Below are positions 9,727-56,268 of a stretch of DNA of 64,000 bases, in pieces. The notes beneath the pieces are model-generated. The model worked only from the letters and a program-made list of their open reading frames with translations, was not told the DNA's origin and searched no databases. The stretch lies in the NCBI RefSeq assembly GCF_003144095.1, contig NZ_NSKH01000018.1:2199541-2263540 (forward strand), written 5' to 3'. The stretch's first letter is position 1; each line of letters begins with the position of its first letter. This DNA is from Streptomyces sp. ICBB 8177. GTDB lineage: Bacteria; Actinomycetota; Actinomycetes; Streptomycetales; Streptomycetaceae. Position numbers and translations under genes: made by a program.

Positions 9727-12084
9727 GTGACTGCACCAACGGAAGCCTCCCTGTTCGCACCCGTCCCGGACTCCCCGGACGCGGTGCTCGAAGGGCTCGA
9801 CCCGGAGCAGCGCGCCGTCGCCACCGCGCTGCACGGGCCGGTGTGCGTGCTGGCCGGAGCCGGGACCGGCAAGACCCGCGCCATCACGCACCGCATCGCC
9901 TACGGGGTGCGCGCCGGGATACTCCAGCCCGGCAGCGTGCTGGCGGTCACCTTCACCGCGCGCGCCGCGGGCGAGATGCGCGGCAGGCTCCGGCAGCTGG
10001 GCGCCGCCGGAGTGCAGGCCCGTACGTTCCACGCCGCCGCCCTGCGCCAGTTGCAGTACTTCTGGCCCCGGGTCGTCGGCGGCCCGCTGCCGCGCCTGGT
10101 CGAGCGCAAGGCGCAGCTGGTCGCGGAGGCCGCCACGCGCGGCGGCCTGCGCCTGGACAGAGGCGAGCTGCGCGACGTCACCGGCGAGATCGAATGGGCC
10201 AAGGTCACCCAGACCGTCCCCGAGGACTACGCCACCGCCGCCGCCCGGGCCGGCCGCGAGGCCCCCCGCGACCCCGCCGAGATCGCCCGCCTCTACACCA
10301 CCTACGAGCAGCTCAAGCGCGACCGCGGCGTGATCGACTTCGAGGACGTGCTGCTGCTGACCGTCGGCGTGCTGCACGAGCGGCCCGACGTCGCCGACCA
10401 GATCCGCTCCCAGTACCAGCACTTCGTCGTCGACGAGTACCAGGACGTCAGCCCCCTCCAGCAGCGGCTGCTCGACCTGTGGCTCGGCGACCGCGACACG
10501 CTGTGCGTCGTCGGCGACGCGGGCCAGACCATCTACTCCTTCACCGGAGCCACCCCCGAGTACCTGCTCGGCTTCCGCGGCCGCTACCCCGGCGCCACCG
10601 TCGTGAAGCTGGTGCGCGACTACCGCTCCACCCCGCAGGTCGTCCACCTCGCCAACGGCGTGCTGTCCCAGGCCCGCGGCCGGTCCGCCGCCCACCGCCT
10701 CGAACTGGTCTCCCAGCGCCCCCCCGGCCCCGACCCCTCCTGCACCGAGTACGCCGACGAGCCCGCCGAGGCCGAGGGCACCGCACGCCACGTGCGCCGC
10801 CTGATCGACTCCGGCGTGCGACCCAGCGAGATCGCCGTGCTCTACCGCGTCAACGCCCAGTCCGAGGTCTACGAACAGGCACTCGCCGACGCGGGCATCC
10901 CCTACCAACTGCGCGGCGCCGAGCGGTTCTTCGAACGTGTCGAGGTCCGCGAGGCCGGAGCGGCCCTGCGCGGTGCCGCCCGCTTCGGCGCCAACGACAC
11001 CCTGCTGGACGGCGCCGTCGACCTGCCCTCCCAGGTGCGCGCCGTGCTGTCCACCAAGAACTGGACCCAGCGGCCCCCCGCCGGATCCGGCGCCGCCCGC
11101 GACCGCTGGGAGTCGCTTGCCGCGCTGGTGCGGCTCGCCGAGGACTTCGCCGCCGCCCGCCCCGACGCCGGCCTCGCCGACCTGGTCGCCGAACTCGACG
11201 AGCGCGCCGCCGCCCAGCACGCGCCCACCGTCGAAGGCGTCACCCTCGCCTCCCTGCACGCCGCCAAGGGCCTGGAATGGGACGCGGTCTTCCTCGTCGG
11301 CCTCACCGAGGGCACGCTGCCGATCACCTACGCGAAGACCGAGGCACAGATCGAGGAGGAACGACGCCTGCTCTACGTGGGCGTGACGCGGGCCCGCTGC
11401 CACCTGTCGCTGTCGTGGGCGCTGTCGCGTTCCCCCGGCGGATACGGCGGCCGCCGCCCCACCCGCTTCCTGACCGGCCTGCGCGGCGGCCCCGGCGCCC
11501 GCCACGCCGCGCCGGGACCGTACGGCGCCGGCGGATCGGTCACGGGTCCCGCCGCGGCCGCGGGCCCGGGGCGGGCGGGACGCGACCGCACGGACGGCGG
11601 GGGAGGCACGGGCGGCGTGGAGCGCGTGCCGGGGGCGCGACGGCGCGGGCCGGTGCGCTGCCGGGTGTGCGGGCGCACGCTCTCGGAGGCCGGCGAGATC
11701 AAACTGATGCGCTGCGAGGACTGCCCCAGCGATCTCGACGAGGGTCTCCACACGCGGCTGCACGACTGGCGGCGGGCCCGTGCGAGCGAACTCGGCCAGC
11801 CCGCGTTCTGCGTCTTCACCGACAAGACGCTGCTGGCCATCGCCGAGGCCCGGCCCGAGGACGAGACGGAACTGGCCCGCATCGCGGGCGTCGGCGCCCG
11901 TAAGCTGCGCAGCTTCGGCCCGGACGTCCTGGCGCTGTGCGCGGGCCGCGAACTCGCGCCGGAAGACGCCTCGGAAGAGACCTCGGAAGACATCTCAGAA
12001 GAAGCGGGGGAACCAGAACTGGCCGGAACCCCGGATTCCAGCGAAAGCGCTGGTGTCCCTGTTACGGATTCGTCGAATAAATAG
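9727..12084 (+). CDS. uvrD2: UvrD2 helicase with tetracysteine-linked HRDC domain
   Basis: 785-residue SF1 3'-5' helicase. Walker A AGAGTGKTRA is near residue 43, DEYQDVSPLQ near 237, SLHAAKGLEWD near 512 and LYVGVTRAR near 548. A zinc-type tetracysteine (RCRVCGRTL ... RCEDCP, about 644-665) leads into an HRDC domain (about 672-740), the layout known for mycobacterial UvrD2. The tail is an acidic, Ser/Thr/Glu-rich stretch. GTG start at 9727; it has no strong ribosome site. The stop codon overlaps the wblC promoter's AT-rich element. Confidence 0.9.
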   Translation: MTAPTEASLFAPVPDSPDAVLEGLDPEQRAVATALHGPVCVLAGAGTGKTRAITHRIAYGVRAGILQPGSVLAVTFTARAAGEMRGRLRQLGAAGVQARTFHAAALRQLQYFWPRVVGGPLPRLVERKAQLVAEAATRGGLRLDRGELRDVTGEIEWAKVTQTVPEDYATAAARAGREAPRDPAEIARLYTTYEQLKRDRGVIDFEDVLLLTVGVLHERPDVADQIRSQYQHFVVDEYQDVSPLQQRLLDLWLGDRDTLCVVGDAGQTIYSFTGATPEYLLGFRGRYPGATVVKLVRDYRSTPQVVHLANGVLSQARGRSAAHRLELVSQRPPGPDPSCTEYADEPAEAEGTARHVRRLIDSGVRPSEIAVLYRVNAQSEVYEQALADAGIPYQLRGAERFFERVEVREAGAALRGAARFGANDTLLDGAVDLPSQVRAVLSTKNWTQRPPAGSGAARDRWESLAALVRLAEDFAAARPDAGLADLVAELDERAAAQHAPTVEGVTLASLHAAKGLEWDAVFLVGLTEGTLPITYAKTEAQIEEERRLLYVGVTRARCHLSLSWALSRSPGGYGGRRPTRFLTGLRGGPGARHAAPGPYGAGGSVTGPAAAAGPGRAGRDRTDGGGGTGGVERVPGARRRGPVRCRVCGRTLSEAGEIKLMRCEDCPSDLDEGLHTRLHDWRRARASELGQPAFCVFTDKTLLAIAEARPEDETELARIAGVGARKLRSFGPDVLALCAGRELAPEDASEETSEDISEEAGEPELAGTPDSSESAGVPVTDSSNK

Positions 12085-12115
12085 TTTGCGCGCGTCGATG
12101 GAATCCTCATAGCCT
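12075..12115 (+). promoter_or_regulatory. wblC promoter with AT-rich WhiB7-type element
   Basis: -35 TTGCGC (12086-12091), 18-base spacer, -10 TAGCCT (12110-12115). An AT-rich patch GAATAAATAG (12075-12084) abuts the -35 element, in the place where WhiB7-family proteins bind in known autoregulated promoters. It overlaps the end of uvrD2. Predicted start is near 12122, giving a leader of about 645 nt before wblC. Confidence 0.65.
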
Positions 12116-12245
12116 GCGTGAGCACGGTCGCTCGCGGCCCTTCCGGGGGCCGAGGAAGCCGTGATGTACTGGTCCGGGCACGCCCTGGACCACCCGCAAG
12201 ACCCTGTCCCCATAAGCCGCGAGACGCCGAGAGGAGGCGAGAGAC

Positions 12246-12596
12246 ATGACCAGCATCACCGAGATCACCAAACTGACCGGTTGCCCGGCCACTGGCCTCC
12301 GCCTGTCCGGCGCCTCGTCGCTGTCCCTTGCCACCGCTGTGCGCGGCACCGGTCTGTCCGGCGCCGGCCTGTTCGGCGGCGGTCGTCTCTTCGGCGGTGC
12401 CGGCGAGCGACCGGTCCAGGCACCGGCGGCGGAAGCGGCAGTACTGGCCCTCGGCTATGCGTCCGCGGCCGACGGTGCCGGATTCCCGCAGCAGGACTGG
12501 GACAGCGCCGCCAATGGCGACACGACCGCAGTGACGAAGCACCACCGCAAGATGCGGGCCTTCCGCGGGCTCGAACCCTGGAGAGATCCAGCCTGA
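12246..12596 (+). CDS. Leader ORF of wblC
   Basis: 116-residue ORF with a near-perfect ribosome site (AGGAGG, 8 bases before ATG). It lies wholly in the wblC leader and ends 24 bases before a terminator-type hairpin. No domain is recognised; the middle is Gly/Ala-rich and the C terminus is basic (KHHRKMRAFRGLEPW). Known for the family: wblC/whiB7 leaders carry upstream ORFs whose translation controls attenuation. Bases 12561-12568 near its end are complementary to the 5' arm of the terminator, so it is probably a regulatory leader, though an independent protein is possible. Confidence 0.65.
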   Translation: MTSITEITKLTGCPATGLRLSGASSLSLATAVRGTGLSGAGLFGGGRLFGGAGERPVQAPAAEAAVLALGYASAADGAGFPQQDWDSAANGDTTAVTKHHRKMRAFRGLEPWRDPA

Positions 12597-12655
12597 TCCA
12601 CCATCAGGTCGGCACCTTCAGGGCCGCGGAACCCGTGAACCGGGATCCGCGGCCC
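12561..12655 (+). promoter_or_regulatory. Candidate transcription attenuator of wblC
   Basis: The terminator stem pairs 12621-12630 (GGGCCGCGGA) with 12646-12655 (TCCGCGGCCC), followed by TTCTGTTTGT. An upstream segment TTCCGCGG (12561-12568, inside the leader ORF) is an exact 8-base complement of 12624-12631, so the two pairings compete. A ribosome near the leader stop would cover 12561-12568 and favour termination; stalling farther upstream would free it. Confidence 0.6.
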
Positions 12656-12766
12656 TTCTGTTTGTGCAGGTGAAACAGGCGAAGGGGCCTCGGAAAAGAC
12701 ACCGACCCGGTACCGACCACAACCCGGCCCACCGGCCGGACCGACAGACGAGGAAGACACCAGACC

Positions 12767-13126
12767 GTGCATTCCACCCCGCCCTCCCCGTCAGTACCGC
12801 CTTCCGAAACGATCCCCCAGCCCGCAGTGCCTCCGGAGGCCCCCTTGCTCCCCCTGACCGAGCTCGACGACGAGATCGAGCGCCTCGGCGTCCCCGTTCC
12901 CTGTCGCTCCTACGACCCCGAGGTCTTCTTCGCCGAGACCCCGGCCGACGTCGAGTACGCCAAGTCCCTGTGCCAGACCTGCCCGGTCCGCGAGGCCTGC
13001 CTCGCCGGGGCCAAGGGCCGCCGTGAGCCCTGGGGCGTGTGGGGCGGTGAGCTGTTCGTGCAGGGCGTCGTGGTGCCCCGCAAGCGGCCGCGTGGGCGTC
13101 CGCGCAAGAACGAGGTCGTGGCATGA
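12767..13126 (+). CDS. wblC: WblC/WhiB7 family redox-type transcription factor
   Basis: 119-residue WhiB-like protein. The four Fe-S cysteines are C46, C69, C72 and C78 (CQTCPVREAC), followed by the GVWGG turn and a C-terminal AT-hook RGRPRK (109-114). The AT-hook marks the WhiB7/WblC subfamily, which works with the principal sigma factor to turn on intrinsic antibiotic resistance. GTG start with GAGGAAG upstream. The stop overlaps the start of the next ORF (ATGA). Regulated by the promoter and attenuator described upstream. Confidence 0.92.
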   Translation: MHSTPPSPSVPPSETIPQPAVPPEAPLLPLTELDDEIERLGVPVPCRSYDPEVFFAETPADVEYAKSLCQTCPVREACLAGAKGRREPWGVWGGELFVQGVVVPRKRPRGRPRKNEVVA

Positions 13127-13434
13127 GGCTCCGCGCCGCCACCGGAACGATCGACAACCCGATGACGCACAACCCCCAGAAGCAGGGCCCGATGACCCCG
13201 TCCGCCTACGAGACCACCCACCGCGCCGCCACCGCGGCAACCCGCCAGAACAGGACCCGTGAGATGCAACTCTTCCCAGAAGCCCTGGCCCGCGCCCATG
13301 TGCAGGAACGGCTCTACGAGGCCGAGTCCGAACGCGCCGCCCGCCGGGTGCTCACCGCTCGCCGCCTCCAGCGACGGGCCGAGCGCGCTTCGCTCAAGGC
13401 CCGCCGGGCGCTCGCCCTCGTCGTCATGCAGTAA
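13123..13434 (+). CDS. Small basic protein coupled to wblC
   Basis: 103-residue Arg/Ala-rich protein, not recognised. Its ATG overlaps the wblC stop (ATGA), suggesting translational coupling and a shared role or regulation. From MQLFPEALARAHVQERLYEAE (split here only by eye) onward it is predicted helical with alternating Glu and Arg, while the first 45 residues look disordered. ATG at 13162 or 13264 are alternative starts. Confidence 0.6.
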   Translation: MRLRAATGTIDNPMTHNPQKQGPMTPSAYETTHRAATAATRQNRTREMQLFPEALARAHVQERLYEAESERAARRVLTARRLQRRAERASLKARRALALVVMQ

Positions 13435-13556: not shown

Positions 13557-13605
13557 CGGTGCGTTGTGTCCCGTTCCGCCCGGCGTACGGAGGTATCGTC
13601 TCCAG

Positions 13606-13824
13606 GTGGATCAGAAGACTCGCAACCCCGCTTCTGAAGAACGTCCCGCCGAACCGGACGCCGCCCCGCCCACGGTGTGCGCGCGCTGCGGCACCGCGAG
13701 CGAGCGAACACCGGTCACCTGGACCTGCTCCGTCGAAGGCGGCGTCCGCCGCTACTTCTGCGACGACTGCGCCCGCGCCCACCTGCGCAGCATCGAAGGC
13801 CGCCTCGACTCCGCGTGGTGGTAG
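13606..13824 (+). CDS. Small zinc-ribbon-like protein
   Basis: 72-residue protein with two CxxC pairs (CARCG and CDDC, about residues 25 and 55), consistent with one structural zinc. No function is known to me. GTG at 13606 is preceded by GGAGG 12 bases upstream. It is convergent with the ABC1 kinase gene, 9 bases apart. Confidence 0.7.
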   Translation: MDQKTRNPASEERPAEPDAAPPTVCARCGTASERTPVTWTCSVEGGVRRYFCDDCARAHLRSIEGRLDSAWW

Positions 13825-27216: not shown

Positions 27217-27290
27217 CGCGGGGTGGAGCAGCTCGGTAGCTCGCTGGGCTCATAACCCAGAGGTCGCAGGTTCAAATCCTGTCCCCGCTA
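27217..27290 (+). tRNA. Initiator tRNA-Met (CAT), copy 1
   Basis: 74 bases without encoded CCA. The anticodon loop is CTCATAA; the stem CTGGG/CCCAG supplies the three G:C pairs typical of initiator tRNA, and position 1:72 is a C:U mismatch. D-stem GAGC/GCTC and T-stem GCAGG/CCTGT fold. Followed by a terminator hairpin. Confidence 0.95.
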
Positions 27291-27297
27291 CTGGAGA

Positions 27298-29373: not shown

Positions 29374-29447
29374 CGCGGGGTGGAGCAGCTCGGTAGCTCG
29401 CTGGGCTCATAACCCAGAGGTCGCAGGTTCAAATCCTGTCCCCGCTA
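29374..29447 (+). tRNA. Initiator tRNA-Met (CAT), copy 2
   Basis: Identical over all 74 bases to the copy at 27217. The preceding 8 bases (CACAACGA) are also shared. Followed by its own terminator hairpin. Confidence 0.95.
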
Positions 29448-29452
29448 CTGAA

Positions 29453-55976: not shown

Positions 55977-56112
55977 GGCGATCTGTCTCCCTCGTAGGCG
56001 GTGGCGACGCGAGGGGGCAGGCCGCGCACGGGCATGCCGCGGCGCGTCCACCGGCCCAACCCGCGAGGCCCGGACATCTCGGCACCACTCCGACCGGCCG
56101 GGCGGAGGATGC

Positions 56113-56215
56113 GCTGTCGACAGGTACTCGGACTCACGGGCGTACGGCCAGGTACGCTCGCACACCGTTGCGGGACAGTCCCGGATTCCCACCGGAGTTC
56201 CCCTGCGGCGACAGC
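56113..56215 (-). ncRNA. Cobalamin (B12) riboswitch before nrdA
   Basis: On the minus strand, P1 arms GCTGTCG (56215-56209) and CGACAGC (56119-56113) enclose GGTGGGAATCC, GTCCCGCAAC and the B12 box GAGTCCGAGTACCTGTCGAC (56135-56116), matching the cobalamin consensus. It is compact (about 103 nt). Known precedent: B12 represses nrdABS in Streptomyces through such a riboswitch. Confidence 0.92.
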
Positions 56216-56221
56216 ACGTCG

Positions 56222-56268
56222 AGCATACATCTTGTGGCTCGGAGGTTGAGCACCCCTAGATGTTGTGT
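56222..56268 (-). promoter_or_regulatory. Two NrdR boxes and nrdA promoter
   Basis: Box 1 ACACAACATCTAGGGG (56268-56253) and box 2 CCACAAGATGTATGCT (56237-56222) fit the NrdR core and are 31 bp apart, the usual phasing. Box 2 contains a -10-like TATGCT, placing the start near 56216 at the riboswitch edge. Confidence 0.75.

Follow-up and report, generated by a model that had tools for sequence, protein, structure and literature searches.

The wblC leader of Streptomyces sp. ICBB 8177: a very probable ribosome-mediated attenuator with a predicted two-part antiterminator

In actinomycetes, the wblC/whiB7 gene is a main switch for intrinsic resistance to antibiotics. Lee, Lee and Roe (2022; doi 10.1111/mmi.14834) reportedly described, according to papers that cite them, ribosome-mediated attenuation of wblC/whiB7 in Streptomyces and mycobacteria. 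Here, we analyze the wblC leader of Streptomyces sp. ICBB 8177 in a 64,000-nucleotide (nt) stretch of contig NZ_NSKH01000018.1. This whole stretch is called the window, and all positions are given in its numbering, on the plus strand unless indicated. The leader is about 650 nt long and lies between a gene for a UvrD-type helicase with an HRDC domain, which ends at 12084, and wblC.

Attenuation of wblC/whiB7 mediated by an upstream open reading frame (uORF) is described in the parts of several papers that deal with this gene (PMC7157823, legend of Fig. 8; PMC11550727; PMC10727445; PMC12421871; PMC13393426). The same parts report drug- or starvation-dependent read-through for wblC/whiB7 orthologues. 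As presented there, the attenuators of Streptomyces coelicolor wblC and mycobacterial whiB7 resemble the locus studied here in the orthologous gene, the long leader, the uORF, the intrinsic terminator, the WblC-type promoter, and an antiterminator built from uORF and terminator sequence. In attenuators of the trp/ilv type, such as Mycobacterium tuberculosis ilvB1, ribosome position likewise chooses between terminator and antiterminator, and a ribosome at the stop codon leads to termination, as far as the pertinent sections go (PMC13236596). However, regulatory codons for one amino-acid class were not seen to cluster in the wblC uORF, which is 116 codons long. The ABCF short-uORF attenuators of Streptomyces, are5sc and tiaA, are also proposed to carry an antibiotic-dependent switch between terminator and antiterminator in the 5' leader. 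In contrast to the wblC uORF, theirs encode only MLV and MVGDDDISG, and the drugs are described, in the text on these two leaders, as stalling ribosomes at the start codons (PMC12421871). It is well supported that the switch considered here is of an already known type that is present in much of the class. We add finer anatomy and do not claim its elements as unpublished.

The leader is very probably a ribosome-mediated transcription attenuator of wblC, as conservation, folding with ribosome masks and the wblC/whiB7 literature together indicate. A preliminary description, made from the sequence of the window, had already proposed that ribosome position at the end of the open reading frame (ORF) sets termination, and the present results support this. 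The comparison draws on 110 loci found by a whole-genome search and a named-contig search, of which 107 are distinct over the leader. These 107 closer leaders belong to the loci with the most similar WblC, and all come from one family. After dereplication, 105 were used for pair probabilities, a hexamer scan and covariation. A further 29 more distant leaders (7 from the same family, 15 from the same order and 7 from the same class) came from genomes without a locus in the whole-genome search.

The promoter (12075-12115) consists of an AT-rich WhiB7/WblC-type element, GAATAAATAG (12075-12084), a -35-like TTTGCGC (12085-12091) and a -10-like TAGCCT (12110-12115). It lies where the preliminary description had placed it, and its layout is matched in 106 of the 107 leaders. 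The WblC motif is given as GAAAWY, 3 nt upstream of the -35 element, in the passage concerned with it (PMC7157823). The AT-rich element in the window differs from GAAAWY at some positions and is itself conserved. Judging from the promoter, transcription would start near 12121. The core AAAATAG ahead of TTTGC is nearly invariant across the 106 matched leaders. The promoter element (12075-12091) also overlaps the final codons and the stop of the upstream UvrD-type gene.

The uORF runs from ATG at 12246 to a TGA stop at 12594-12596 and is preceded by a Shine-Dalgarno sequence, AGGAGG, at 12232-12237. The well-initiated leader ORF seen earlier is thus present with 116 codons and has a counterpart in all 107 leaders; in each of these, a putative start preceded by a Shine-Dalgarno match of at least 4 bases could be assigned. 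The uORF had been considered long for a leader peptide. This length is not unusual for the gene, as the uORFs of the 107 leaders have 90-181 codons, and those of the 26 of 29 distant leaders with an assigned uORF have 50-152. What varies little is how far the stop codon lies from the terminator arm, 22-29 nt in 107/107 closer leaders and 18-31 nt in 26/29 distant ones. No run of regulatory codons of the trp type was found near the uORF end by reading the window uORF, in which the longest single-residue run is three glycines at codons 44-46, a long way from that end.

Downstream of the uORF, an intrinsic terminator (12620-12663) is predicted, with arms at 12620-12634 and 12642-12656 followed by TTCTGTTT (12656-12663). 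Its strong G+C stem, GGGCCGCGGA-A-CCCG paired with CGGG-A-TCCGCGGCCC at 12621-12655, is the one noted in the preliminary description, and uORF and terminator occur together in 107/107 distinct leaders. The terminator is near-invariant in the 105 leaders, and it alone is recovered in an RNAalifold consensus of 52 sequences. For the 141-nt stretch 12540-12680, folding gives a lower energy than for any of 200 shuffles (z -3.8). Roughly 100-110 nt separate the hairpin from wblC. A simple terminator scan did not report the window terminator, probably because of the internal A/A mismatch. The terminator core, in one of three near-identical spellings, is found in 29/29 distant leaders, in three of which the gene was placed by an assumed offset.

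The end of the uORF can pair with the terminator. As had been seen before, the 8-base segment TTCCGCGG (12561-12568) and CCGCGGAA (12624-12631) are exact reverse complements of each other. The match is weaker evidence than it appears, because the palindrome CCGCGG occurs in both terminator arms. The 6-bp core of the pairing can form in 105/105 dereplicated leaders and the other hexamers of the 8-bp match in 89/105 and 92/105. The hexamer scan yielded 29 conserved antiparallel pairs versus 22 in a parallel control, so that conserved complementarity alone proves little. The earlier pairing is real, but it is incomplete, being one part of a longer, two-part antiterminator. In this predicted structure, GCGGG-CC-UUCCGCGG and CCCUGGAG on the uORF side face CUUCAGGG-CCGCGGAA-CCCGU on the terminator side, which adds CCCUGGAG with CUUCAGGG and GCGGG with CCCGU to the 8-base match. 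Strand alpha, GCGGG-CC-TTCCGCGG (12554-12568), has its partner at 12624-12636. Strand beta, CCCTGGAG (12576-12583), has its partner CTTCAGGG at 12616-12623, and each of its hexamers pairs in 97-98 of the 105 leaders. The receiving strand (12616-12636), beta' (12616-12623) followed by alpha' (12624-12636), overlaps the 5' arm of the terminator. Strand beta sits where a ribosome at the stop codon would be.

The order of events was modeled by prefix folding, in which a ribosome was represented by a mask that makes all RNA up to its leading edge unavailable. In transcripts of the window that end at 12632-12648, where the 3' arm is incomplete, alpha pairs with a probability of 0.97-1.0 and beta with 1.0. 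From 12652 on, the terminator wins. The uORF end is thus predicted to hold the 5' arm until the 3' arm has been made. Between 12540 and 12660, the terminator state (-59.2 kcal/mol) is more stable than the antiterminator state (-53.5 kcal/mol), so the switch would be kinetic. Under the mask, alpha survives to a leading edge at 12555, falls to 0.61 at 12560 and is gone at 12565, and beta falls to 0.18 at 12580 and is gone at 12585. With the P-site taken to lie 14 nt behind the edge, these losses correspond to P-sites near codons 103 and 109. The same dependence is seen in the 107 leaders. Before the 3' arm is out, the median hold of the uORF end on the 5' arm is 0.97; when the mask extends past the stop, it is 0.00. 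Once the 3' arm is present, the terminator forms with a median of 0.99 (at least 0.9 in 86/107). With the edge 36 nt before the end of the stop codon, the hold on the arm is 0.94, and it drops to 0.02 when the edge has advanced to 9 nt before that point. A hold of at least 0.9 is reached in 97/107 real leaders versus 6/428 shuffles of the uORF end. The energy of the duplex between the uORF end and the terminator arm has p<=0.05 against shuffles in 105/107 closer leaders and in 17/29 distant ones. In ten distant leaders (L119-L128), the beta sequence differs yet pairs with GGACTTGAGG, and ten of ten pass, with z from -3.1 to -6.5.

The spread of the leader was followed with an RNA model built from 52 leaders, with which the own genome and 197 genomes of the class were searched. 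In the own genome, the model finds this leader with E 2.9e-27. The other match below 0.1 is the same terminator on the opposite strand, and the next place has 0.13. Matches occur in 147/197 class genomes and 67/91 genera, some of which supplied sequences to the model. The 30 best matches were fetched, and each of them precedes a WhiB7-type gene.

Several results weigh against attenuation as described here. The U-tract is short, and a scan for a stem plus T-run reported a terminator in 19 of the 26 distant leaders examined. In a ribosome-free full fold, beta is still paired with 0.5-0.63 beside the finished terminator. By prediction, therefore, only alpha is strictly exclusive with the terminator, and beta is not fully so. 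The arm is still held at 0.5 or more in 217/428 shuffles of the uORF end. The covariation of alpha and beta in the 105 leaders gives a tree-null p of 0.53 for both, a comparison that cannot test these strands because they hardly vary within this set. An all-pairs covariation scan with average product correction and a tree-based null found no significant pair, and shared ancestry dominates it. Twelve of the 29 distant duplexes do not reach p<=0.05, and L119-L128 are not independent, as these ten genomes belong to one genus. No model match was obtained in 50/197 class genomes, where whiB7 or the leader may be absent or the match may be below the filter. Finally, the exact blocking step is uncertain, because a ribosome parked at the stop codon covers beta and not alpha.

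With these reservations, attenuation would proceed as follows. A ribosome would load on the uORF behind RNA polymerase. If, during synthesis of the terminator, this ribosome is located on about the last dozen codons or at the stop, it would cover the antiterminator strands. The terminator hairpin (12620-12656) would then form, and transcription would end before wblC. When ribosomes are stalled or slowed upstream, by translation inhibitors or amino-acid shortage, or are never loaded, alpha and beta would be free. They could pair with 12616-12636 as soon as it has emerged, and the two-part antiterminator would hold the 5' arm of the terminator long enough for the polymerase to pass. Since the uORF has 116 codons, stalling would be expected to count at nearly every codon. 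What was observed in this work are the sequences and how they are conserved, together with the predicted structures and the way these depend on the ribosome mask. Induction by stalled ribosomes and autoactivation by WblC would apply here by analogy with what the literature reports for orthologues. The two-part antiterminator, the fixed distance from stop to terminator and a recurring hairpin at the stop codon lead to precise predictions across many genera. These predictions concern broad-spectrum sensing of translation without drug-specific codons.

The preliminary description had also suggested that the C-terminus of the uORF looks constrained and that the uORF may make a functional protein. 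The first suggestion stands in part. Among the 107 leaders, the C-terminal peptide is strongly conserved, and a loose RG..PW motif just ahead of the terminator core occurs in all of them. Constraint on the RNA explains this at least in part, and other peptides are found in distant leaders, where the C-termini, including those of six same-family leaders, look unrelated by eye to that of the window. The ratio of nonsynonymous to synonymous differences per site (pN/pS), taken over 5,289 pairs with a wblC pS of 0.05-0.45, is 0.93 for the whole uORF versus 0.36 for wblC. It is lower in codons 104-116 (0.58) and codons 54-79 (0.71). Synonymous change is also lowest over the last 13 codons, with pS 0.17. 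Furthermore, a codon with less than 15% usage is fixed at 80% or more in 7/25 columns of conserved residues (Met and Trp excluded), versus 0/155 in the UvrD-type gene. Examples of these frozen rare codons are AAA at codon 9, CGA at codon 55, GCA at codon 59 and CCA at codon 115. Such fixed rare codons in the uORF reflect constraint at the nucleotide level. The variation that does occur fits constraint on the RNA as well: R/S at codon 113 alters a GNGA stretch at its free base, and A/V at codon 116 accompanies C-G/U-A changes in P2, the hairpin across the stop codon. Because the last 13 codons have a pN/pS of 0.58, some constraint at the peptide level may contribute there. The uORF stays open and its stop keeps a set distance from the terminator, while little constraint acts on its overall amino-acid sequence. 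The uORF looks to be kept for RNA pairing and stop-codon position more than for its protein.

These data bear on three other explanations. A functional small protein, co-expressed with wblC and with a C-terminus kept for protein function, could draw on the universal RG..PW motif and on the lowered pN/pS of codons 104-116 and 54-79. It is nevertheless very improbable. The ratio for the whole uORF is far above that of wblC, synonymous change is low in the C-terminal codons too, rare codons are frozen as they are not in the UvrD-type gene, and the peptide differs in distant leaders; searches of the uORF product against Pfam and NCBIfam gave no match. The suggestion of a functional uORF product is accordingly not supported. 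Just as little weight falls to a drug-specific arrest peptide, whose nascent C-terminus would stall the ribosome from within the exit tunnel and so bring about antitermination. The strong conservation of the C-terminal peptide in the 107 leaders would be expected of it. Beta would be masked, though, by a ribosome stalled at the very end, which would favor termination; the changes at codons 113 and 116 follow the GNGA free base and the P2 partner base, and the peptide is not kept in distant leaders. The conserved C-terminus of this uORF serves as a warning that a strongly conserved peptide can be the footprint of constraint on RNA.

The hairpin might instead merely end an independent small transcript, with wblC driven mainly by a promoter beyond 12656, for which the 110 nt between hairpin and wblC could offer room. 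A simple scan of 11900-13300 found no sigma-70-type match, although it fails to detect the upstream promoter, too. In 106/107 leaders, the WblC-type promoter is kept far upstream, and the terminator arm has its complement in the uORF end. Of the three explanations, this one appears the most remote.

Other helices in the leader were compared with simulations by counting compensatory double changes on a tree against 150 nulls with independent columns. The named helices were chosen post hoc, from pair probabilities or by eye in the same alignment, and the 150-replicate counts are uncorrected for this choice. The counts thus flatter helices A, B, C and P2. Helix A is a 5' hairpin near the predicted transcription start (12123-12163). 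Its six basal pairs have mean probabilities of 0.67-0.75 in the 105 leaders, and its 10 double changes are reached by 0/150 nulls. Helix B (12222-12315) is tentative and would cover the Shine-Dalgarno sequence and start codon of the uORF. It consists of an outer (12222-12231 with 12306-12315), a middle (12233-12239 with 12290-12296) and an inner segment (12245-12251 with 12279-12285), with mean pair probabilities of about 0.3-0.75. The outer segment has 5 double events (1/150 nulls), the inner 5 (2/150) and the middle none, and the fraction of paired cells in the outer segment is within the null (21/150). In folding, the Shine-Dalgarno sequence is 9% unpaired versus 21% with codons 9-27 shuffled. 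Helix C is a hairpin in codons 58-78 (12419-12479) whose six basal pairs have a mean probability of about 0.7. It has 14 double events, with a maximum of 9 in the tree null (0/150 reach 14) and of 8 in slid controls; its inner part alone is not significant (19/150). The helix C region has a median z of -3.5 (below -1.64 in 95/107), and a negative tendency is also seen in codons 25-53, the region used for comparison (median -1.57; below -1.64 in 51/103).

Hairpin P2 (12591-12609) has 11 double events, reached by 0/150 nulls. At the stop codon, 105/105 closer leaders and, with many different sequences, 26/29 distant ones have a stem of 6 bp or more. Taken individually, this stem lies below shuffles at p<=0.05 in 57/105 closer and 12/29 distant leaders. 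The RNAalifold consensus of 52 sequences does not contain P2. A possible small hairpin that uses the beta strand, P1 (CTGGA-GNGA-TCCAG, 12578-12591), has a GTGA, GAGA or GCGA loop in most of the 105 leaders. As a hairpin with a GNRA-type loop it was rejected: the sequence is conserved, but covariation is lacking, the median probability in prefix folds is 0.00 and the stem is missing in some leaders. A role for P1 is doubtful. Other candidates were also set aside. A relay of mutually exclusive helices along the ORF (12474-12480 with 12610-12616 and 12345-12350 with 12474-12479) looks conserved but is within the tree null, and a hairpin of 12275-12280 with 12285-12290 has no excess of double changes (56/150 nulls reach it). 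Nor is the uORF body as a whole unusually structured. Over every third leader, and with the last 40 nt of the uORF excluded, the mean window z is -0.49 for the uORF, -0.26 for the UvrD-type control, +0.42 for wblC and -0.13 for distant uORF bodies.

The more interesting question is what leads a uORF of such length to retain RNA hairpins within its coding sequence. One answer, speculative and on balance unlikely, treats the uORF as a dual-coded RNA, in which internal hairpins would set the timing of the sensor and the protein sequence would be a by-product. Helix B, formed by codons 12-24 with the Shine-Dalgarno sequence and start, would close over the ribosome-binding site soon after synthesis, so that only a pioneer ribosome directly behind RNA polymerase could enter the uORF. 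Helix C would pause the polymerase or otherwise keep both machines in step. The long ORF would then serve as an integrator, and wblC would be opened by a stall at nearly any of its codons.

The wblC/whiB7 gene itself (12767-13126, GTG start) encodes 119 amino acids with a Whib domain (PF02467, 6.2e-15), and the best match within the own genome is this place. In the WblC search, 59/61 genomes have a best match with E 1e-23 or better, and the other two have weak Wbl-type matches only. The closest named relative among the fetched loci is Streptantibioticus parmotrematis, with 98% WblC identity. An ORF of 103 amino acids (13123-13434) follows, overlapping the wblC stop by ATGA, and is probably co-transcribed with wblC. 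It has a tblastn match at 109/110 loci with a median identity of 62%, and the overlap is kept in 76/80 named loci. Pfam and NCBIfam searches of this ORF gave no match, and it appears as a conserved partner of unassigned family in the wblC operon. Further downstream, a small ORF (13564-13824) with a TTG start has two CxxC motifs and similar sequence at 78/110 loci, and no confident family in Pfam or NCBIfam. The wblC leader matched no Rfam family at the gathering score; a permissive threshold gave four weak matches (E<=1), far below gathering. Elsewhere in the window, Rfam places a cobalamin riboswitch aptamer at 56102-56238 on the minus strand, above the gathering score with 37.4 bits. Two tRNA-Met (CAT) genes with equal Rfam scores, at 27217-27291 and 29374-29448, lie about 2.2 kb apart on the plus strand.

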